Shown in pieces: positions 28,672-40,377 of a DNA stretch of 41,892 bases. Under the pieces are notes generated by a model. That model searched no databases. It saw only the letters and a list, made by a program, of their open reading frames with translations, and had not been told where the DNA came from. Position 1 is the first letter of the stretch, and each line of letters starts with the position of its first letter. A program made the translations under genes and the position numbers. The DNA is from Bacillota bacterium (GTDB lineage Bacteria > Bacillota > Limnochordia > DUMW01), in assembly GCA_012839765.1 (NCBI GenBank), contig DUMW01000017.1, forward strand, positions 1 to 41,892, written 5' to 3'.

Positions 28672-29496
28672 TTACCCGCAGATACCCCGCTGGCTGCTGC
28701 GGAGAAACCTCAGCAGATGATCAATCTCAGGAACGCCAGAAAGCTCCTGCTCCATCTGTTCAATGGCCTGGGAAACATTTAAGTTCGAGCGATAGAGGAT
28801 CTTGAAGGCGTGTTTGATCTGGGCCCGCACTTCCGGGGCCACTCCATTCCGGCGCAATCCCACGATGTTAACTCCGTACACCTTGGCAGGGTTACCATCC
28901 ACCATGAAGAAGGGAGGCACGTCCATATTCACCATACTATGGGCCCCCAACATGGCCATTTTGCCAATCTTGGTAAACTGGTGCACCCCGGATAACCCAC
29001 CGATCACAGCATGGTCTTCAATGGTCACATGTCCCCCGATACCGGAGCCATGGGAGATCACAACATTGTTGCCAATCTGGCAATCGTGGGCTACGTGAAC
29101 ATAGGACATGATCAGGTTGTTGTTGCCAAGGCGCGTTTCACCGCCCCCATCCTTAGTCCCGATACTGATGGTGGCATACTCCCGAATGATATTCCCATCA
29201 CCAATGAAAAGATAACACTTCTCACCCTTGTACTTCAGGTCCTGGGGTTCATTACCGATCACTGCGCCGGTGTAGATCCGATTGTTGGCCCCAATTCGTG
29301 TCCAACCTTCCACCACCGCATGGGGGCCAATGATGGTGTTGTCACCAATCTCCACATTATCACCAATGACAGCATAGGGACCAATTTGCACGTTCTTCCC
29401 TAAAACCGCCTTGGGAGAAACTATGGCTGTGGGATGAATCTTGCGGTGAATGTGTACTACATTACCACTCTTCGATTGTATAGCCTGTTCTTCCAC
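28672..29496 (-). CDS. lpxA: UDP-N-acetylglucosamine acyltransferase
   Basis: The 274-residue enzyme catalyses the first step of lipid A synthesis, moving an acyl chain from ACP to UDP-GlcNAc. Residues about 15-200 form a left-handed beta-helix of hexapeptide repeats (VQIGPYAVIGDNVEIGDN and similar). The catalytic His lies in YVHVAHDC, and the QFTKIG/HSMVNMDVPPF region and helical C-terminus are typical. I chose GTG 29496, with AGGTGG 7 bases upstream. A TTG at 29526 would overlap fabZ and lacks a ribosome site. The GNEPQDLKYKGE segment separates it from LpxD. Confidence 0.95.
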   Translation of the reverse strand: MEEQAIQSKSGNVVHIHRKIHPTAIVSPKAVLGKNVQIGPYAVIGDNVEIGDNTIIGPHAVVEGWTRIGANNRIYTGAVIGNEPQDLKYKGEKCYLFIGDGNIIREYATISIGTKDGGGETRLGNNNLIMSYVHVAHDCQIGNNVVISHGSGIGGHVTIEDHAVIGGLSGVHQFTKIGKMAMLGAHSMVNMDVPPFFMVDGNPAKVYGVNIVGLRRNGVAPEVRAQIKHAFKILYRSNLNVSQAIEQMEQELSGVPEIDHLLRFLRSSQRGICG

Positions 29497-29509
29497 GTTC
29501 TCGCCACCT

Positions 29510-29932
29510 TTATGCTTCAGACGCAATCATGAACAACAATTCCGCCTCCGCGGCCAACTGCTCGTCCACGAAGGCCTTGCCTTGAATTCTCGCCACCTGT
29601 CGACGGCGTTGGATCACTTCTACTTCTAAGATCACCTGATCTCCGGGCCTTACCACCCGACGGAACTTCGCCTTGTCCACTCCGGCAAAAAGCGGCACCA
29701 CATTGGTATCGTCAGGCAACACCACAACCCCTGCGGCTTGGGCCATTGCCTCAAGGAGCAACACCCCCGGCATGATAGGATTATTGGGATAATGACCCTG
29801 GAAGAAGGCTTCGTTTATGGTCACATTCTTCAGGGCCTTAGCCCGTTGGCCCGGCTGGAGTTCCAAAATCCTGTCCACCAACAAAAAGGGATACCGATGG
29901 GGCAACTTTTCCATGATCTCCCGTATATCCAT
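29510..29932 (-). CDS. fabZ: 3-hydroxyacyl-ACP dehydratase FabZ
   Basis: The 140-residue hot-dog-fold protein dehydrates 3-hydroxyacyl-ACP in fatty acid synthesis, the branch point competing with LpxA and LpxC for precursors. The catalytic His is in LPHRYPFLLVDR. The catalytic Glu is in the helix of GHYPNNPIMPGVLLLEAMAQ. ATG 29932 follows GGAGGA by 9 bases; TTG codons at 29938 and 29935 are possible. Its place between lpxC and lpxA is widely conserved in LPS-bearing bacteria. Confidence 0.96.
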   Translation of the reverse strand: MDIREIMEKLPHRYPFLLVDRILELQPGQRAKALKNVTINEAFFQGHYPNNPIMPGVLLLEAMAQAAGVVVLPDDTNVVPLFAGVDKAKFRRVVRPGDQVILEVEVIQRRRQVARIQGKAFVDEQLAAEAELLFMIASEA

Positions 29933-29963
29933 CAACAATATTCCTCCCGTCTACGGGTCTTGG

Positions 29964-30803
29964 CTAATCCTCTGCCAAACGCAGATACTTGCGCATCTTG
30001 CGGGCTAAGGCATTGTTCATCCTGTGCCCGGACTTGATGGCGATAATGTGGGCGGAGATCTGTCCCAAAAGACTCAGGTCGCCAATAATGTCCAACACCT
30101 TGTGGCGCACGATTTCATCCCGGAACCGCAGTTCATTCAAGTACCGGTCTTCGCCCACCACCACCGCTACGTCAAGGTTACCTCCCAGGGCAAGCTCCGC
30201 CTCGCGCATCCGGGAGATCTCCTGGATGAACCCCACGGTCCGCGCCGGGGCAATTTCCGAGGCAAAGGTATCCTTGTCCAAGGTGTACTCAATAAACTGA
30301 TTACCCACCACGGGGTGATCGGATACAAAGGAATAGCTGATCTTCAGCTCCGGATGGGGCAAGGCCACCAGATGGGCGTCCCCCTGGGAAACCCAACAGG
30401 GTTGCTCCAACAGGTATCTCCGACCGGGTTCATTATAAACGATCGTGCCCGCCGATTCAATTAACTGGCAGAAGCAGGCTGCCGACCCGTCGGCGATGGG
30501 GATCTCCGGACCAATAACCTCCACTTGCGCATTATGGATGCCAGACCCGTGGAGGGCCGCCAAAATGTGCTCCACAGTCTTCACTTTGACCTCCCCGTTA
30601 CCGATGGTGGTACAGCGATTGGTCTCCGTTACATTCTCCACGGTCATAGGGATGCAGGGTTTCCCGGGCAAATCCAGCCGACATAATATATATCCGGTAT
30701 TTGGTTCTGCTGGTTTAATCTTCACCGTTGTGGATTGGCCAGTGTGAATCCCTATGCCCGTATAGGTAACTTCTCTGCCAATCGTCGTCTGTAGGGAGGA
30801 CAT
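29964..30803 (-). CDS. lpxC: UDP-3-O-acyl-N-acetylglucosamine deacetylase
   Basis: This 279-residue zinc enzyme makes the committed step of lipid A synthesis. Zinc ligands are visible: His about residue 79 in VEHILAALHG, then His and Asp in RHKVLDIIGDL. The catalytic His is in KSGHRMN. The N-terminal TIGREVTYTGIGIHTG segment and the ISRMREAELALGG active-site lid fit the family. ATG 30803 is preferred; a TTG lies just before it. The ribosome site is weak. It is the first lipid A gene of a run extending to 22503, 116 bases after the ABC ATPase gene. Confidence 0.97.
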   Translation of the reverse strand: MSSLQTTIGREVTYTGIGIHTGQSTTVKIKPAEPNTGYILCRLDLPGKPCIPMTVENVTETNRCTTIGNGEVKVKTVEHILAALHGSGIHNAQVEVIGPEIPIADGSAACFCQLIESAGTIVYNEPGRRYLLEQPCWVSQGDAHLVALPHPELKISYSFVSDHPVVGNQFIEYTLDKDTFASEIAPARTVGFIQEISRMREAELALGGNLDVAVVVGEDRYLNELRFRDEIVRHKVLDIIGDLSLLGQISAHIIAIKSGHRMNNALARKMRKYLRLAED

Positions 30804-30922
30804 CAATATTGTCGCCTTTCTATTCCAACTCTATCAGTTCAACAACACATTTGATCATAGTACCTGACCAACGATTTCATATAAGCAATTTCGCCACTAC
30901 CCAACTAATTCCTGCTTATCAT

Positions 30923-31654
30923 TTAGGAAACCAGCAAACCCTTGTATTTCCGGCCAATTTCCGACTGGGGGTTTTCAAAAATCTGTTCCGGAGTGCCGAT
31001 TTCCACCACCCGTCCACGGTCCATCAGGACGATACGATCCGCCACCCGGCGGGCAAAGGATACCTCATGGGTCACGATGATCATGGTGGTCTTGCTGGTG
31101 GCAATCAGTTCTTCCATCACATCTAAGACTTCCCTTACCAAGATGGGATCCAATGAAGCGGTGGGTTCATCCCAGAGCATCAGCTCCGGCTCCAAAACCA
31201 AAGCCCGGGCGATCCCTACCCGCTGCTGTTGTCCACCACTGAGTTCCGCTGGCTTTTGCTGCCAATACTCGTCCATCCCCACCCTACTTAAGGCATGCAT
31301 CGCCCGATCCCGGGCAACCTTGGGATCCACACCGTCCATGATTAACCCGAACATGACATTTTCCAACACATTAAGACGGCCAATCAGGTTGAAGCCTTGG
31401 AACACGTAGCCAATGCGTTTTCGTAGGGTCAAAAGCTCCCTACGGTTCATGTCCAGCACCGATTGATCCTGAAGCAGGATGCGACCGTGATCCGGCTCCA
31501 CCAATCGGTTAATGCACCGCACCGAGGTGGACTTGCCGCAACCACTAGGGCCCATAATAACCACCGTCTCCCCTTCCTCCACATCCAGCATGAAACCATT
31601 AAGCGCGGTGACCTTCCCGTAACGCTTAATCAAGTCGATCATCCGTAAAAACAT
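30923..31654 (-). CDS. ABC transporter ATPase, polar amino acid (GlnQ/HisP) type
   Basis: This is a 243-residue ABC ATPase with Walker A GPSGCGKST, signature LSGGQQQRVGIARAL, Walker B LMLWDEPTASLDP and switch His IIVTHEVSFARRVADR. The end, GTPEQIFENPQSEIGRKY, is typical of polar amino acid uptake ATPases. It starts 18 bases after an unusual permease-like gene, so the two should form one transporter. No substrate-binding protein or ordinary permease is adjacent. Because the cassette sits between lptA and lpxC, its substrate may not be an amino acid; this is inference. Confidence 0.9.
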   Translation of the reverse strand: MFLRMIDLIKRYGKVTALNGFMLDVEEGETVVIMGPSGCGKSTSVRCINRLVEPDHGRILLQDQSVLDMNRRELLTLRKRIGYVFQGFNLIGRLNVLENVMFGLIMDGVDPKVARDRAMHALSRVGMDEYWQQKPAELSGGQQQRVGIARALVLEPELMLWDEPTASLDPILVREVLDVMEELIATSKTTMIIVTHEVSFARRVADRIVLMDRGRVVEIGTPEQIFENPQSEIGRKYKGLLVS

Positions 31655-31672
31655 GACACCATCCCCCTCCCT

Positions 31673-33766
31673 TCAGCATTGCTGACGGCGTCTGTTCAGA
31701 GTTTGCACAATCCCCGGCCGACCCGCGGGAATAACCACTTCCCGCATAATCTGGGCATAGGTCAGACCCAGGGCCTCCGCCGCCAGGAGTTCTTCCTGGT
31801 TCACAGGACTGATCCGCTCCGCAAGCAGTGCAATGGTGGTACCGAGCAGGGCACCAATCCCCAGCACCCAATAGGCGTTGAGGTAAGGTACATTTCCACC
31901 GCTGAGCCAGTAGATGGCACTCAGTAGGCAAGCACCCAATAATGCCCCAAAAACCACCACGGGGAACATGGTCTTGATCCTGCGATGTTTCCCTTGACAA
32001 GTGTTAAGCAAAAGCCGCCGGCTGGCACTAAGCAAAGTGGCATGGTCCAAGAGAAAGACCAGAGCCACAAAGACGATACTGAGTAGCCCGGCAATGATCC
32101 CCCGCACTTCACTGAGCACATTGAAAAGCACCGAAAGGGCACTGGGCATGATGACCCCCACCGGTAAAGAATAAAGATCGATGTGCTCAAAGCCCTCAAC
32201 TTCCGCCAAGGCTTGCTCCAACACAGACAGGGCAATGTCCCCATCTAGTAAGAACTCGATCTTACTACCGGGGATCACCTCGCCGCCCAGGTACTGATCG
32301 ATTAACTCCACCGATTGCCCGATGTCTTCATCGGACAACTGGGGCAAGCTGTCCTTCACAAATTGGATCTGCTCCACAATCTGTTCCAGATCGATGGTAG
32401 AAATGGCATCGATCCGGGTGGAGATGCTCTCCAGAGTATCCTGCAGGGCTGCCACATCCAGGTCCTTGAAGGAGCCCACCGGGTCATCACCAGCCCCCAG
32501 GGCATCCTTAAAGAGGTTGTTTAACAGTAAAGTCAAAAGCAGTTCTGTACCCTGGGGTGCACCGCTAGGACTCTGGCTCAACTGGGCAAGCTGTTGCTGC
32601 AGCTGACCCAACTCCACCAAGGCCCGCTGGAAGGTCTCCAAGGTCTGCTCCGCGTTGGTCACCGCGGCATCCGCGTCCTTAGCCAAACCCTCCAGTTCCT
32701 GCAGCAGTTCCACACTGTTGTCTATGGTTTGGGCCAGACGGTACCTTTCGTTGCTGATGGTCACCGTCCCCACCTGTTCACCCACTTGGTCCTTGCCCGA
32801 AAGACGGTGGATCGGTCTGTTTTCTAAGGAAGTATCCAGGGTGGAAGCATCGCCAGACACGATAAGCCCGGTGGCGGTCCTTTCCCCCACTTGAAGGACC
32901 TCAATCACCAAATCCCCGGCCTTGGCGTCGGTGACGACAAGCCGCTCCCCTGGTCGCACTGCAACAGACTCCGACAGGCTAATATCCACCTTTGAAGCAT
33001 AGGTCAACAGAAAGCCCTTCATCTCATGCAACACCTTACGAAAGGCCTGGACACTTTGTTCGTCTTCTCCGGAGGAAATATTCTTGAGGACCTCAGGCCG
33101 CAACTTGGTGGCAATCTGCCTTTCAAGCTCTGCGGACAAAGAAGCAATGTCCTGGGGATCCGTATCCAAGGGTAAGCGGAACTCCACCAATTGATAGGAC
33201 TCTAGCATCTTGTTGATCTCCGCCCGCAGACGGCCACTGGTGTCGGCTGCCTCCAAAAGAACGTAGATATCGGAGCCTCTGTTGAAGACACAGCGTACAT
33301 TGTCTAGGGAATTAATCCGGCCAATGAGTTCCTGCCGAACCCCCTGCTGCACCCCGCTGATTACGATGGAGGGCTCCGCGACAATGCTTACCCCGGAGAA
33401 ACCAGAGACCCCGGAAAAATATGATGATAAATTCTGAAAACTCTCTGCGGTATAAAGGGCGTCGGGCAGACGGAGGAAGAGGTTCATCTTGCCCGCGATG
33501 GTGATCCCTTCCTTCCACTGGGCGCCGGGCAGACTATCCCGCAGAATCCGTTCAAATTCGGGAATTGCCGCCTCCTTGGCTTCCTGCCGGATATGTATCA
33601 CGGCATCGTACTGTCCCATCTCACCCACCAAGTTGGCAGCGGTATCGCCAAAGTAGGTATCCACAGCCCATGCTCCCCCAAAAGCAAGCAAAGATCCCAC
33701 GAGCACGGTAACAATGAAAATAGTGATTAGATCTTTGGCAAAACCATCAGAAAGTATGGTGAGCAT
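31673..33766 (-). CDS. Hybrid ABC permease-like protein with large periplasmic domain, unknown substrate
   Basis: The 697-residue protein has one N-terminal membrane helix (about 10-32) and about 500 residues that should be periplasmic. That region includes a coiled-coil segment near 340-400. Three helices follow (about 553-577, 597-617, 622-645). The last 40 residues contain AAEALGLTYAQIMREVVIP, close to the EAA loop of amino acid ABC permeases, which contacts the ATPase. Ordinary permeases have more membrane helices after this loop; here the protein ends about 17 residues later. It has a strong ribosome site (GGGAGG) and its own promoter. I know no named family with this layout. It could be a new transporter or tether, or a decayed permease. 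Confidence 0.75.
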   Translation of the reverse strand: MLTILSDGFAKDLITIFIVTVLVGSLLAFGGAWAVDTYFGDTAANLVGEMGQYDAVIHIRQEAKEAAIPEFERILRDSLPGAQWKEGITIAGKMNLFLRLPDALYTAESFQNLSSYFSGVSGFSGVSIVAEPSIVISGVQQGVRQELIGRINSLDNVRCVFNRGSDIYVLLEAADTSGRLRAEINKMLESYQLVEFRLPLDTDPQDIASLSAELERQIATKLRPEVLKNISSGEDEQSVQAFRKVLHEMKGFLLTYASKVDISLSESVAVRPGERLVVTDAKAGDLVIEVLQVGERTATGLIVSGDASTLDTSLENRPIHRLSGKDQVGEQVGTVTISNERYRLAQTIDNSVELLQELEGLAKDADAAVTNAEQTLETFQRALVELGQLQQQLAQLSQSPSGAPQGTELLLTLLLNNLFKDALGAGDDPVGSFKDLDVAALQDTLESISTRIDAISTIDLEQIVEQIQFVKDSLPQLSDEDIGQSVELIDQYLGGEVIPGSKIEFLLDGDIALSVLEQALAEVEGFEHIDLYSLPVGVIMPSALSVLFNVLSEVRGIIAGLLSIVFVALVFLLDHATLLSASRRLLLNTCQGKHRRIKTMFPVVVFGALLGACLLSAIYWLSGGNVPYLNAYWVLGIGALLGTTIALLAERISPVNQEELLAAEALGLTYAQIMREVVIPAGRPGIVQTLNRRRQQC

Positions 33767-33826
33767 ATGGCTCCCTCCCCAGGGTGTGGCTAATACAGCT
33801 GCTAATACTTCTCATTTAGCATTTGC

Positions 33827-33835
33827 ATTATACCA
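33827..33835 (-). promoter_or_regulatory. Extended -10 promoter for the hybrid ABC pair
   Basis: On the minus strand TGGTATAAT gives a perfect -10 (33827-33832) with the TG extension. No good -35 is visible at the usual distance. Transcription would start near 33820, about 55 bases before the ATG at 33766. Confidence 0.6.
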
Positions 33836-33879
33836 TAGCCCGGGAGGGAGCAGGACATGTAAATAGGACTACATCTGCC

Positions 33880-34545
33880 TTAAAGTGTCAAATCCAAACG
33901 GCCGGGGCCAGTACCCACCACGGTCTCATTATCCAGATCGATGGTGAAACTGTTGCCCCACCAGGTACCCTGTTCGGTAATCAACCGCGCATTGCCGCTG
34001 AGGGTAACCACACCTTCTTCTTCCAAGTAGGTGACCCGGTCAGCCCGTCCTTCTTGATCTTGGTTGTAGAAGAACACATCATCCTGGGCCACGATCCTGT
34101 CCTCGGCCGCGAAGTACTCCAGGTAACCGGCCTTCAGCTCCACCCGGATCTCGCCACTGTCCGCCTTCCGTTGCACCAGGTGCACATTACCGGTGATTAT
34201 GTACCGCTCCTCGTCAAAGAGGGCTTCCACTTGCTCCGCAGTAATGGTGTTTTCCCCTTGAATCACCTGCACGGCACCGGTAATGATAGCCCGCCGTTCC
34301 TTGCCATAGTATTCCACCCTGGTGGCGTTAATCTCTACATCATCCAGGGTAATGCGCACATAGCCCGCCGAAGGAGCAATGAACCAGATGTCTTCCTTAA
34401 GATCACCGGTTACCGAAGGATCATCCTCCGGTGCATCAATGACTTCAATGGTTACCCGCTTCCCCTCGTCGGCCTGGGCATAGCCAGCGCAGAACGCAAT
34501 CAGCAACAATACCACTAGAATTCTACTTACAGTCCTCCCCATCAT
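33880..34545 (-). CDS. lptA: LptA-like periplasmic LPS transport protein (OstA domain)
   Basis: The 221-residue protein has a signal peptide (1-25, ending near GYAQA) and an OstA/LptA beta-jellyroll made of repeated short strands. Examples are VEYYGKERRAIITGAVQVIQGENTITAEQ, RYIITGNVHLVQ and VVTLSGNARLITEQ. LptA filaments bridge LptC and LptD and shield lipid A. It is the third gene of lptD-lptC-lptA, 14 bases after lptC. The match is to fold and context; LptA and LptC are similar domains and can be confused, but the cleavable signal here fits LptA. Confidence 0.88.
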   Translation of the reverse strand: MMGRTVSRILVVLLLIAFCAGYAQADEGKRVTIEVIDAPEDDPSVTGDLKEDIWFIAPSAGYVRITLDDVEINATRVEYYGKERRAIITGAVQVIQGENTITAEQVEALFDEERYIITGNVHLVQRKADSGEIRVELKAGYLEYFAAEDRIVAQDDVFFYNQDQEGRADRVTYLEEEGVVTLSGNARLITEQGTWWGNSFTIDLDNETVVGTGPGRLDLTL

Positions 34546-34559
34546 TACCCCCCCAAGTT

Positions 34560-35225
34560 CTAGGCGTCTAGTTGCTCCTTCCGATCTAGCTCCAGCTCCA
34601 GACGCACATTACCAAATAATTCTACTGCCTTCCCCTCGGAGTCATAGACCACGTGATCAGCTGTAATCCGCTGTTTCTCTCCTTGGGTGATTTCCACTTG
34701 TCCACTAATGGACATCTGTTTCTTGGCCAGATCCCCCTCCATCCTCTCTGCATGTAATTCCTTTTCCCCAATGTAGGCCACCACGGGCCCCGTGGAGACA
34801 AAGGTCTCCTGCCTGGAGTTATATCTGAGCCCCTCGATCAAGAAACGCTCCTCATCAGTGGTAATCTCCACCTCACCCAACAGGTGGAAATCGTCAGTAT
34901 TGCGATTCCAGATCCCTTCCCGACCGGTGAAGTACAAATAGGGCTCTCCTTCACGAAAGATTATACCGGAACCAATTTCCTTGATCACCGCCTCGCTTTG
35001 CCCCTCGCCCACCTGAAGGAGGGAAGCGTCCATCTCCCATTGCTTGACACCACCCCGTCGGCCAATCAACAGCACGTCCTTGAAATACATGCCGGGATCC
35101 GCGGGAAATTCACGGGAGGGCGGCTCCGGCGAAGACGCATCCTGCTCCGCACCTCGCTGGAAGAAATACACCAAGCCCACCACCAAACAAAGCCCTAACA
35201 GAAGAAGCCCAATTCCCTTGCGCAT
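34560..35225 (-). CDS. lptC: LptC-like inner-membrane LPS export protein
   Basis: The 221-residue protein has an uncleaved-looking membrane anchor (GLLLLGLCLVVGLVYFF, residues 5-22). A periplasmic beta-jellyroll of the LptC/OstA type follows, with strands such as GVKQWEMDASLLQV, EAVIKEIGSGIIF and HLLGEVEITTDEERFLIEGLRYN. LptC takes LPS from LptB-LptF/G and passes it to LptA. It starts 12 bases after the lptD stop with a GGGGGG ribosome site. The second jellyroll-like stretch (about 150-215) makes it a little longer than E. coli LptC. Confidence 0.88.
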   Translation of the reverse strand: MRKGIGLLLLGLCLVVGLVYFFQRGAEQDASSPEPPSREFPADPGMYFKDVLLIGRRGGVKQWEMDASLLQVGEGQSEAVIKEIGSGIIFREGEPYLYFTGREGIWNRNTDDFHLLGEVEITTDEERFLIEGLRYNSRQETFVSTGPVVAYIGEKELHAERMEGDLAKKQMSISGQVEITQGEKQRITADHVVYDSEGKAVELFGNVRLELELDRKEQLDA

Positions 35226-35237
35226 CGGATCCCCCCC

Positions 35238-37433
35238 TTATGGAAACAGGTTTTGCCAGCCGGCGGCATCGAACATGAATTGCTCGCCGCTAGTTCCCAG
35301 CCGGAAGCGTCCATCGGGAAAAGCATAGATGCGATACTCGGCCCAAACCATATTGTCCACCTGGTTGTACCGGAAGACCACTTCCCGGCAGTGCAGGTCT
35401 TTGCTCAAAGCCAGATCCCCCCGCTCCCATTTCCCCTCAGACCCGCTGTAAATACCGGCATAGGCCAGAGTCCAGGTGTCGCTAAGCTTGAGGTTCAGTT
35501 GGGCATCGAAGCGCTCTAGCCTCTGTTTGAGAGGATCGTAACTGACGCCCAAGCGCACTGCATAATCCTCTCCAAAACTCTTTTCAAAAAGACCGGTAAC
35601 GGAGACCAAAGTACTCAGGTAAGGATTGAAGACACCGGAAACGCCCAGTTTCCATCCACCTTCCCCTTGGGCACCTTCCATCTGGAAAGAAGCGGTGATA
35701 TTCTGCAATAGCCCGGTACGGAAGTTGTACCCACCGGAAAGTGACCAGTCCATCCAGTCATTATTATACACCAACTTACCGGTCAACAGCCGAGAAGGAG
35801 TAACCCGTTCAGAAGCGAAGGGGGTCTCGCCGATCCCCTGTTGTATCTGGAAAGTGGTCTGCATCCGCAGCCCGCCGAAAAGCTGCCAATCCAAAGTGGC
35901 CTTGGGATGTAGCCGGAAGTAGTAGGTATCGGCGCCATAGATACTACCACTTTGGGTACTGCTCAGATCCAGTCTCATCCCTTCGGCTAGTTGGTAGGAC
36001 TTGTTCTTCAGGTTAAACTCCACGGTGGAGCGAATGGCTTCGATGCCCTGGGGTTCCTCCCGATAGCGGCCCACCTTCAGAGCAAAATCGTAAGGCCAAG
36101 AGCCCAAATGGCGGGAGACGGTAGAAAGGCTCAATTCAGGCAATTTGCTAATCGAATGCCAGGTAACGTCCTGGCCGGTCTCCAGACCGGGGTTGAAGGT
36201 CTGGGCTAGAACCAGATCAAACCGGTAATCGGAGCGGTTCCGGGACAGCTGGGCCTGGTACTCCACCCGTTTCTGGAAGGCAGTTCCTTCCTGTTTGGTA
36301 GCATACTTCCCCTGGACATTGGTGCTCCAATCCTGGCCTAACTTAGTGGACAGCCGCAGCTCGCCACCCAACTGCTCCGTAGTCTTGCTGGGCGTTTCGG
36401 TGACGCTGTAGGACATCGCAGCGCTGGCGGTGGTGTTCCCCCACTGCCCCCACAACTGCAGCTGGCTCTGCAAAACGTCCCTACTTATCCCGCTAAAGGT
36501 ATAATTGATCCTCCGATCCAAGATCCCGCTCAAGGTCAAGGGACCTAAGGAAAGCTGGTGAGACAAACTGCCCCGCCACTGTCCTCCGCCCACTGGTCGG
36601 TTCTGGCGGTATTCCGTGGAGAACCTCCCCGTCTGGTTATCTCCGAGGCGATAGTCGCCGGAAAAGCCAAGGACAAATCCCGTCCTTTGGTGATACTGAC
36701 CATGCACTTTACCCCACAGATTCTCATGGAGACGTACATCCCATTTTGCGCCGATGAACCAGCCACCTGCGACGGTATACCCAATCTCGGGCAGGTTCAA
36801 CCGCCCTTCTTCCCTAATGGGCAGACTAAGATAGGGCCAGTAAAAAAGCGGTATCTTCCCCTCCCGGTAAACCACGTTTCGAATGACGATGCGGTCATCG
36901 GGATAAATCTCCAGCCTTTCCGCCTGCAAATGATAATGGGGTTCCTGGAGGGAACAGGTGGTAGCAGTGCCATTGGTGATCACCAGCCGTTGGGGGGCAC
37001 CTTCAAAAACCTCCCCTAAAAGGTAGACTGGGGAATTGAACTTGGGCACTTCGATGGTGGCCTGGGCCGCAAAGAAGGACCATTCACCGGTGGATAGATC
37101 ATAATGCAGGGCCTCTCCCTTAATCTCTCCTTCCTCCAACAAGAGAGTGGCACCACCGGCCAGTTCCAGGTGGTTGTTGGCCAGGTCCACCACCAAGCTT
37201 TCGCCCTTTAAAGTCAGGCCTTGATGTCTAATCTCCACGCCCCCCTCGGCCAGGAGCATGTCATCGCGCAAAAGGTAGTTCACTTGTCCAAAGAAGTCCA
37301 CTTCCACCCGTTCAGCGGCAGCAAGTACAGGCCAAGCCACCAGAAGGGAAGCCAGAAAAAGAAATATGATCGTACTTGCACGCCTTTTCAAGTCCAATTC
37401 ACACCACCAAGTAGAGGTCATTGTGTTTTTCAT
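35238..37433 (-). CDS. lptD: Outer-membrane LPS assembly protein LptD
   Basis: The 731-residue protein has a signal peptide after a short polar N-terminus (hydrophobic core TIIFLFLASLLVAWPVLAA). An OstA/LptA-like jellyroll covers about residues 45-145. The LptD hallmark follows: TTCSLQEPHYHLQAERLEI then PDDRIVIRNVVYREGKIPLFYWPY. The rest is a large beta-barrel (about 225-731). LptD inserts LPS into the outer leaflet. The second cysteine pair of E. coli LptD is not evident. ATG 37433 lacks a ribosome site; TTG codons at residues 13 and 15 are alternative starts nearer the signal peptide. It heads lptD-lptC-lptA and is divergent from csoR. Confidence 0.92.
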   Translation of the reverse strand: MKNTMTSTWWCELDLKRRASTIIFLFLASLLVAWPVLAAAERVEVDFFGQVNYLLRDDMLLAEGGVEIRHQGLTLKGESLVVDLANNHLELAGGATLLLEEGEIKGEALHYDLSTGEWSFFAAQATIEVPKFNSPVYLLGEVFEGAPQRLVITNGTATTCSLQEPHYHLQAERLEIYPDDRIVIRNVVYREGKIPLFYWPYLSLPIREEGRLNLPEIGYTVAGGWFIGAKWDVRLHENLWGKVHGQYHQRTGFVLGFSGDYRLGDNQTGRFSTEYRQNRPVGGGQWRGSLSHQLSLGPLTLSGILDRRINYTFSGISRDVLQSQLQLWGQWGNTTASAAMSYSVTETPSKTTEQLGGELRLSTKLGQDWSTNVQGKYATKQEGTAFQKRVEYQAQLSRNRSDYRFDLVLAQTFNPGLETGQDVTWHSISKLPELSLSTVSRHLGSWPYDFALKVGRYREEPQGIEAIRSTVEFNLKNKSYQLAEGMRLDLSSTQSGSIYGADTYYFRLHPKATLDWQLFGGLRMQTTFQIQQGIGETPFASERVTPSRLLTGKLVYNNDWMDWSLSGGYNFRTGLLQNITASFQMEGAQGEGGWKLGVSGVFNPYLSTLVSVTGLFEKSFGEDYAVRLGVSYDPLKQRLERFDAQLNLKLSDTWTLAYAGIYSGSEGKWERGDLALSKDLHCREVVFRYNQVDNMVWAEYRIYAFPDGRFRLGTSGEQFMFDAAGWQNLFP

Positions 37434-38020: not shown

Positions 38021-38359
38021 ATGGGAAACAAAGTTTTGGAGTTAACTGAAGACATCTTTCAAGAGGAAGTCCTCGATGCAGAAGTACCGGTATTAGTGGA
38101 CTTTTGGGCGCCGTGGTGTGGACCTTGCCGCATGGTCGCACCGATCATTGAACAACTGGCAGCATCCTATCCACCGGACAAGCTGAAAGTGACCAAAGTC
38201 AACGTGGATGACAACCAAGAGCTGGCCATGAAGTATAATGTAATGTCAATTCCCACCCTGGCCCTGTTCAAGGACGGCCAAGTGGTCAAACGCATGGTGG
38301 GGTTCCAACCCTTCGAGAGATTACAAGAAGAGATTGAGGAAGTCCTGGTTGATGAGTAA
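38021..38359 (+). CDS. trxA: Thioredoxin
   Basis: The 112-residue thioredoxin has the active site WAPWCGPCRM, the cis-proline segment SIPTLALF and the conserved VDDNQELAMKYNV region. It reduces disulfides in the cytoplasm. The start is ATG 38021, 5 bases after AGGAGGGA, which itself overlaps the csoR stop, so the two are coupled. A strong terminator begins within the stop codon. Expression should be under control of the CsoR-type repressor, which is unusual for a housekeeping thioredoxin and suggests a stress role. Confidence 0.95.
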   Translation: MGNKVLELTEDIFQEEVLDAEVPVLVDFWAPWCGPCRMVAPIIEQLAASYPPDKLKVTKVNVDDNQELAMKYNVMSIPTLALFKDGQVVKRMVGFQPFERLQEEIEEVLVDE

Positions 38360-38386
38360 AAAGGAGACGCGAAGCGTCTCCTTTTT
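38358..38386. terminator. Bidirectional terminator between trxA and the acyl-CoA synthetase
   Basis: AAAAAGGAGACGC (38358-38370) and GCGTCTCCTTTTT (38374-38386) form a perfect 13-bp stem with a GAA loop. The A and T ends let it serve both converging genes; it starts in the trxA stop and ends two bases before the other gene's stop. Confidence 0.93.
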
Positions 38387-38387
38387 A

Positions 38388-40052
38388 CTAAGCTGTCTCA
38401 ATGCAGGTTTCCTCTTGGAGATTTAGAAGCTTGATCCCCATTTCCCTCAACTTATATTTCTGCACCTTGCCACTGGCCGTGGTGGGATATTCGGTCACAA
38501 AATGGACGTACTTGGGCACCTTATGCCGGGCCATGTTCTCCCTCACGTATTCTTGAATCTCTTCCGCAGTACAGGTTACCACGTCCTTTAGGCAAATAAA
38601 GGCCATGATCTCTTCACCGTAGGTCTGATCGGGCACCCCCACCACCTGCACGTCGCTCACCGCTGGATGGGTGTACAAGAACTCCTCGATTTCCCTGGGA
38701 TAGATGTTTTCCCCGCCCCGGATGATCATGTCCTTGGCCCGGCCGGTAATCTTGAAGTACCCCTCTTCCGTCTGGATCCCCAGATCACCGGTGTACAACC
38801 AACCATCTTCGTCAATAACCTGGGCCGTAGCCTCGGGCATATTGTAGTAACCCTTCATCACGTGATAACCCCGGGTGCAAATCTCCCCCTGCACTCCCCG
38901 GGGAACCTCCTGGCGGGTCACAGGATCCACCACTTTGGCTTCGATCCCGGGCAGAACCCGTCCCACCGTAGTCAACCGCATCTCCACCGGATCCGTCGTC
39001 CTGCTTTGGGTAATACCCGGGGATGACTCGGTCTGACCGTATACACTGGTAATCTCTCGCATGCCCATCCGGGTCATCGCGGCCCGCATCACCTCCGCAG
39101 GACAATTGGAACCAGCCATAATCCCGGTCCGCAAAGAGCTTAAGTCGTATTGGTCGAAATCCGGTTGGGAAAGAACCGCAATGAACATGGTGGGCACACC
39201 GTGCAGCGCAGTACACCGTTCCTGGGAAACCGCCTCCAAAACCCATTTCGGTCGGAAATACTCCAAGGGAACCATGGTGGTGCCATGGGTGATGGATGCC
39301 ATGATGGCCAACACAATCCCGAAACAGTGGAAGAAGGGCACCGGGATACACAACCGATCTTCGTGGGTGAAGTCCATGCAATCCCCGATAGCCTTTCCGT
39401 TGTTCAAGATATTGTAATGGGTAAGCTGTACACCCTTGGGAAAGCCGGTGGTACCCGAGGTATACTGGATATTGACCACTTCATGGGGATCAGTGGAAGC
39501 CGCCCGGGCCCGGAACTCCTCCTCCGAAACCTGCGAAGCCCAATTCATAAGATCATTCCAGTGAAACATGCCCTTTGGCGCAGGCTCCGTCCCTATGTAG
39601 ACGACCCGCTTCAGCCGCTTCAGCCGTTCCGATCTCAGCATCCCAGGCTCACTTTCCCGCAGCTCCGGCACCAACCGGTACAGGGTCTTGACATAATCCA
39701 CGTCTTTGAAGCCATCCATGAGGAAAAAGGTCTCGGTATCGGACTGTTTTAGCAGATACTCCAGTTCAAAGCCCTTGTAATTGGTGTTGACGGTGACCAA
39801 AACGGCACCGATCTTGACGGTGGCAAAAAGCAGCAACAGCCACTCCAGCTTATTGGTGGCCCAGATGGCCACATGCTCCCCCTTGCGCACACCCAAGGCC
39901 ATCAGGCCCCGCGCCGCTTGGTTACACATTTCATTAAACTCTTTATAAGTCAGACGAATTCCCTCGATGGGGTAGACCACCGCTTCGTTGTCAGGGTATT
40001 TTTGTGCAATCTCCTCCAAAAAGGCCCCAATGGTCTTGTTGATCATTTCCAT
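38388..40052 (-). CDS. Acyl-CoA synthetase (AMP-forming), leucine T-box controlled
   Basis: This 554-residue enzyme of the ANL superfamily activates a carboxylic acid with ATP and CoA. Motifs: [12 protein letters not shown] (phosphate loop), [30 protein letters not shown] with the hinge after [17 protein letters not shown], and the catalytic Lys in [13 protein letters not shown]. It is close to medium- or long-chain fatty acyl-CoA ligases such as FadD/YngI, but the acid cannot be read from the sequence. ATG 40052 has GGAG 7 bases upstream. The leader is a leucine-type T-box, so expression should rise when leucine is short. That hints at a leucine-related acid such as isovalerate. Confidence 0.88.
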
Positions 40053-40090: not shown

Positions 40091-40342
40091 AAAAAAGCCT
40101 TTCATCTCCGACAAGAGACGAAAGGCATGCTTCCGCGGTACCACTCTTCTTAGCCAACCGGAGGTTGGCTCCCTTGATTCCATAACGGCGGACCCCGGCC
40201 ACTGCTACGGCTACTGCTTTCACAGTGACGACTCCAGGACGAGTTCACTGCCGATTGGGCCATTTTCCACCAACCAATGGCTCTCTAGACCAACCCGGAC
40301 AGCTAATACTTCCCTTCATTGTCTTTCGCGTAATCGCATTTA
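40091..40342 (-). promoter_or_regulatory. T-box riboswitch leader, leucine (CUC specifier)
   Basis: On the minus strand the T-box core AGAGTGGTACCGCGG lies at about 40133-40147. It is followed by the terminator GCCTTTCGTCTC...GAGATGAAAGGC (40097-40126) and six T (40091-40096). Stem I elements are AGTA (near 40309), AGAGAG, the GGTTGGTGGAAA distal loop, and GTGAA just before the specifier. The specifier reads CTC at 40241-40243, a leucine codon. The antiterminator bulge TGGT pairs with ACCA, so the discriminator base is A, as expected for tRNA-Leu. An 8-bp hairpin (AGCCAACC/GGTTGGCT) lies between Stem I and the antiterminator. Confidence 0.93.
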
Positions 40343-40348
40343 GTGTTA

Positions 40349-40377
40349 AGTGTACAAGAAGAACCGGCCGATGTCAA
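40349..40377 (-). promoter_or_regulatory. Promoter of the T-box leader
   Basis: TTGACA (40372-40377), a 17-base spacer and TACACT (40349-40354) on the minus strand. Transcription should start near 40342, giving a leader of about 290 bases. Confidence 0.85.

Follow-up and report, generated by a model that had tools for sequence, protein, structure and literature searches.

A leucine T-box in front of an acyl-CoA ligase gene in anaerobic Bacillota, and a possible role of the ligase in leucine synthesis from isovalerate

The locus considered here raises the question of why the gene for an AMP-forming acyl-CoA ligase should be placed behind a leader RNA specific for tRNA-Leu, and what acid such an enzyme would activate. 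Within the window, i.e. the whole stretch of 41,892 nucleotides that was analysed, cmscan with Rfam gave a single match, the T-box RF00230, recovered over its full length (1-219) with a score of 127.3 bits, where 93 is the gathering threshold, and an E value of 4.6e-28, by which a chance T-box is ruled out. The elements of the leader and of the gene behind it are collected in Table 1. The promoter is the only promoter-like site of the region, 0.2 such sites being expected in shuffled sequences, and the terminator fold has an energy of -20.5 kcal/mol (z -6.2). The features expected of a T-box, namely a UGGN bulge and alternative terminator and antiterminator folds in front of a coding gene, were all found, and the segment CGUCUCU is common to both folds. 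On the upstream side a strong terminator (40446-40411) sets the T-box and ligase apart from the preceding gene.

An initial annotation of this DNA, made from the letters alone, had described a full T-box with promoter, CTC specifier, TGGT bulge and terminator at 40091-40377. The covariance-model search which it had proposed, together with the promoter and folding data, bears out this description, and the interval indeed runs from the promoter to the terminator. There is hardly any doubt that the leader is an ordinary, well-formed leucine T-box. It has the same structural elements, the same CUC specifier and the same terminator/antiterminator switch as the Leu-class T-boxes (RF00230) of leuA, ilv-leu and leuS leaders, but its target is an acyl-CoA ligase and not a tRNA synthetase, a transporter or a classical biosynthetic enzyme.

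Table 1. Positions of the features of the T-box-ligase unit in the window, and of tRNA genes nested in related leaders (positions within the named locus).
Feature	Position	Strand	Basis or remark
T-box leader RNA (Stem I, III, antiterminator)	40111..40328	-	RF00230
Sigma-70/A-type promoter TTGACA-17-TACACT	40349..40377	-	10/12 consensus matches
Specifier codon CUC (Leu) within GAA-CUC-G	40241..40243	-	Rfam alignment and register calibration
UGGU of T-box bulge, pairing with tRNA ACCA end	40140..40143	-	Sequence and Rfam alignment
Antiterminator helix, alternative to terminator	40112..40148	-	Fold of 40112-40150
Intrinsic terminator hairpin	40097..40126	-	13 bp, then T run (TTTTTT) 40091-40096
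AMP-forming acyl-CoA ligase, candidate branched short-chain (isovalerate) CoA ligase	38388..40052	-	554 aa
Bidirectional terminator-like hairpin closing the transcript	38357..38387	.	Sequence AAAAAGGAGACGCTTCGCGTCTCCTTTTT, after ligase stop codon
Nested tRNA-Ala(GGC), leuS leader of the same genome (G000:C109)	L003 1559-1634	-	
Nested tRNA-Ala(GGC), ligase-leuS leaders of other families	L092 3337-3412, L102 3314-3389, L104 1234-1308, L105 1237-1311, L135 1208-1283		

To calibrate the register of the specifier, the ligase leader was compared with seven further T-boxes of this genome, all of them above the gathering threshold. The leuS and ilvB leaders contain GAA-CTC-G in a register identical to that of the ligase leader, and in this register the specifiers of ileS (ATC), tyrS (TAC), serS (TCC), thrS (ACC) and DAHP synthase (TTC) are read, the specifier amino acid agreeing in all seven T-boxes with the function of the gene behind. 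The calibration confirms the leucine specifier proposed initially and rules out the frames AAC (Asn) and ACU (Thr), which are also incompatible with the leaders of relatives having one extra base (GAA-N-CTC-A/G). CUC is the commonest leucine specifier and accounts for 74% of the Leu T-boxes in TBDB (PMC7778990).

The protein encoded behind the leader contains the AMP-binding domain PF00501 (E 1e-99) and PF13193, and these, together with the motifs YTSGTTG(F)PKG and GDLG and the catalytic lysine (GKVQK), place it in the ANL superfamily. Its ATG at 40052 has the sequence GGAG on the 5' side. The nearest NCBIfam subfamily is PRK12583, 'fatty acid CoA ligase family' (NF009233), the cut-off of which was not reached (777.9 vs 832 bits), and among proteins of solved structure it is closest to fatty-acyl and feruloyl-CoA synthetases. 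Because a terminator-like hairpin lies behind the stop codon and the neighbouring gene, coding for a thioredoxin, is on the opposite (+) strand, the ligase gene is regarded as monocistronic; a longer co-transcribed operon in the window is ruled out by the orientation of this neighbour. The same stretch contains LpxA, LpxC, LptC, LptA-like and LptD-like genes (28672-37433), indicating a diderm bacterium with T-boxes, and an open reading frame of 697 aa (31673-33766) that belongs to no Pfam family.

Orthologues of the ligase were gathered from named genomes and from 398 genomes of the phylum, 90 of which possess one; of 73 genomes of the window's own class only one other has a close orthologue, and it is without a T-box. 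It was found that a T-box confirmed with the Rfam model lies directly upstream of 30 other orthologues, including those of five named gut and rumen Clostridia, and that the specifier is CUC in all 30 of them (31 of 31 with the window); L128 and L156, which were motif-positive and without Rfam confirmation, were left out of this count. Between the clades with a T-box ligase the identity of the enzyme is about 50-69%, and the carriers occur at dispersed positions in the ligase tree, which requires 6-11 changes, so the association is either old and retained or was gained repeatedly. We are very confident that control by leucine is genuine and occurs widely in this ligase family; the survey of orthologous leaders, suggested at the outset, has extended the control first claimed for a single locus. 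A search of the literature, mostly outside subscription papers, found nothing relevant on a leucine T-box with a CoA ligase, and single cases may already be indexed in TBDB, which lists downstream genes.

Some further loci deserve mention. Motif hits at L052, L077, L082 and L087 (delta-proteobacteria and others) gave weak core matches with no clear leucine specifier loop and were ascribed to chance. Two genomes have a tandem pair of leucine T-boxes before the ligase (L110 859-1392, L134 4231-4732). Eighteen loci in L151-L178 represent a ligase branch fused to about 290 extra amino acids (840-890 aa in total) and have no T-box.

As to the substrate, information is contained in the surroundings of the orthologues. 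In several Bacillota they are situated inside full yng/liu-type clusters of leucine/isovalerate degradation, composed of acyl-CoA dehydrogenase, ligase, biotin carboxylase, HMG-CoA lyase, enoyl-CoA hydratase and carboxyltransferase genes, which represent the path from isovaleryl-CoA to HMG-CoA and are often accompanied by a separate acetoacetate-CoA ligase. At five Desulfuromonadales-type loci the orthologue adjoins genes of a 2-oxoacid:ferredoxin oxidoreductase; three of these loci were scanned, and VorB exceeded its curated cut-off at L061 and L085, the alpha subunit of L062 being nearer to PorA. At L061, L062, L070, L080 and L085 a conserved XRE-cupin-like regulator lies in front of the ligase-oxidoreductase cluster. 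In Desulfotomaculum-like genomes the orthologue is adjoined by an MbcS-like synthetase. The motifs which, by analogy with other ANL enzymes, we take to line the acyl pocket (one beginning GIMAGS) hardly vary between the T-box, liu and VOR groups, and this suggests one substrate class. Isovalerate would fit all of these contexts, and the product of the ligase is quite probably isovaleryl-CoA or a close branched short acyl-CoA.

Two known enzymes invite comparison. The YngI/liu-type ligase of the Bacillus-type cluster belongs to the same family as the window ligase, with 55-60% identity and the same putative pocket motifs, but the cluster there is catabolic, whereas the window ligase is a lone gene governed by a leucine-starvation switch, a setting that implies anabolic use. 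The methylbutyryl/branched-acid CoA synthetase MbcS (NF047394) also activates branched short acids, but it is a member of a different ANL subfamily.

Since a T-box opens when its tRNA-Leu is uncharged, the ligase would be wanted when leucine is short, and this fits a route from the acid through acyl-CoA and 2-ketoisocaproate to leucine, not degradation. As judged from the T-box family, the anticodon of uncharged tRNA-Leu(GAG) would pair with the CUC specifier and the ACCA end with the UGGU bulge, the antiterminator would be stabilised, and RNA polymerase would read into the ligase gene. The gene contexts suggest that the ligase would then convert a short branched acid, most likely isovalerate, into isovaleryl-CoA, from which 2-ketoisocaproate may be formed through reductive carboxylation by a 2-oxoacid:ferredoxin oxidoreductase of the VOR type, the genes of which lie elsewhere in the genome, leucine being presumably obtained by transamination. 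Regulation by the leucine T-box is near certain. That the main purpose of the ligase is leucine synthesis through reductive carboxylation is, on balance, probable, and the same may be said of the whole chain, in which uncharged tRNA-Leu turns on an isovalerate-type CoA ligase feeding this conversion, with substrate and pathway deduced from context. To our knowledge, the activating ligase gene of the isovalerate-to-leucine route and its regulation have not been assigned. The route itself is cited for rumen anaerobes and methanogens in a review, according to which isovalerate is used by methanogens of the rumen to make leucine (PMC10658910); the pathway and substrate are those predicted here, and a VOR-type enzyme is present.

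In the genome of the window, a VOR-type oxidoreductase was found at G000 C68, where VorB is over the cut-off and has adjacent small subunits. Another leucine T-box precedes ilvB-ilvN-ilvC, leuA and leuC follow further down the same strand, and LeuC and LeuA are over their cut-offs. Between ilvC and leuA of this operon (L230, G000:C98) there are apparent aminotransferase and phosphoglycerate dehydrogenase-like (serC/serA-like) genes. As the classical leu genes are kept in this organism, the ligase route would be supplementary, or a salvage route. The leucine salvage route put forward in the initial annotation is retained as far as a ligase under a leucine T-box is concerned, but ilvBNC, leuA and leuC had been missed, and the route is not the sole source of leucine. 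The isovalerate idea that went with it gains support from the yng/liu clusters, the VorB-type neighbours, the VorB of this genome and the loss of LeuC described below. Oxidoreductase genes with the same leader, a further check named in the initial annotation, were looked for in 30 VorB loci, and no T-box was found before the VOR operon.

VorB is present in 21 of 26 T-box-ligase genomes compared with 207 of 372 others (Fisher p 0.009, kinship ignored), the former count still including the genomes of L128 and L156 (G286 and G427), both without VorB, and the protein is common in the phylum as a whole (57%); the enrichment lends the pathway weak support. No clear VorB was detected in the T-box-ligase genomes G427, G175 and G455, nor in G286, the T-box of which is at motif level only. 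These genomes count against the proposed pathway, as do the classical leu genes of the window's genome and the VOR operons found with no T-box.

In the rumen family of G458, no LeuC was found in six of the seven genomes with an unfused ligase (G457, G458, G459, G462, G463, G464), where the searches recovered either an aconitase of about 760 aa or no protein at all; the seventh, G456, has both the unfused ligase and LeuC. LeuB was absent from all three of the six that were tested (G457-G459), and these three possess VorB. The leucine T-box of the ligase was seen in five of the six, the ligase of G462 being cut at the contig end. Targeted searches with TIGR00170, LeuB and NF001614 were used for these absences, the first LeuC model being blind to the bacterial type; the genomes are drafts, and hence the absence is supported mainly by its repetition. 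In this clade the isovalerate route would replace the last steps of the classical pathway.

It is tempting to speculate, albeit tentatively, that a leucine-gated isovalerate-salvage module, consisting of the leucine T-box, the branched-acid CoA ligase and VOR, might be widespread in anaerobic Bacillota, either in a leuS operon or alone, and might in the rumen family have replaced the leuCD/leuB half of the pathway. For decades it has been known that rumen and other anaerobes require isovalerate, but we know of no gene assigned to the activation step. If true, such a module would provide a genetic explanation for the dependence of rumen fibre degraders on isovalerate. A specific, regulated candidate for this step can now be named in dozens of genomes, a metabolic enzyme class is added to the targets of leucine T-boxes, and the case shows how a substrate can be assigned, by way of a regulatory RNA, to an acyl-CoA ligase that could not otherwise be annotated. 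The conversion of isovalerate to leucine is itself old biochemistry; the new elements are the candidate gene and the way it is controlled.

The main rival to leucine synthesis is the supply of primers for iso-branched fatty acids. It assumes the same T-box and the same substrate class, isovaleryl-CoA made from external isovalerate priming these fatty acids when leucine, from which the primer normally comes, is short, so that the product is common to both readings. In ruminococci isovalerate is incorporated into leucine, as known from older work, and also into branched fatty acids; MbcS, the role of which is in branched fatty-acid priming, has a relative beside the orthologue in Desulfotomaculum-like genomes; and an acyl-ACP thioesterase directly follows the T-box ligase in two rumen genomes (L060 7696-8457, L071 7730-8506). 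However, a sensor of tRNA charging would be an odd control for lipid synthesis, VorB adjoins orthologues, and both the co-transcription with leuS at 15 loci and the loss of LeuC (and of LeuB where tested) in the rumen genomes point to leucine itself, which makes this alternative unlikely.

Another acid might be the substrate, such as 2-methylbutyrate, isobutyrate, an aryl acid or a longer fatty acid, leucine shortage then being no more than a signal of starvation in general. Enzymes of the ANL superfamily are promiscuous, the nearest ones of solved structure act on fatty acids and ferulate, and a fused branch of some 850 aa exists; but the specifier is always that of leucine, never of isoleucine or valine, and the yng/liu contexts are pathways of the leucine skeleton. 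We consider this reading quite improbable.

The order T-box, ligase, leuS was found at 15 of the 30 other loci, leuS usually beginning 15-180 nt past the ligase with no further leader between; at the other 15 loci and in the window the ligase is under its own T-box without leuS. The leucine control initially read from the window was confirmed, but leuS, present in half of the other operons, had been missed. In three rumen genomes (G457-G459) T-boxes were detected before ileS, the ligase and some further amino-acid genes, with none seen before leuS, the T-box of the ligase being the only one found before a leucine-related gene; these genomes and the stand-alone leaders argue against a ligase gene that is only carried along with leuS. 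That the T-box belongs to leuS, the ligase having been inserted between them in an ancestor and separated copies keeping the leader with no role in leucine metabolism, would agree with the 15 leuS-containing loci and with the common leader descent suggested by a tRNA-Ala nested both in the leuS leader of this genome and in ligase-leuS leaders of others, but is very improbable, given the full leucine T-box kept without leuS at the remaining loci, the tandem T-boxes before the ligase and the rumen arrangement, neutral retention across clades so divergent being unlikely.

The nested element is a complete tRNA-Ala(GGC) gene with CCA, placed inside the leader of the leucine T-box, 13-25 nt upstream of its antiterminator core (Table 1). 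Its flanks look able to pair in several of the leaders. For a riboswitch that senses tRNA it looks unusual to contain a tRNA gene.
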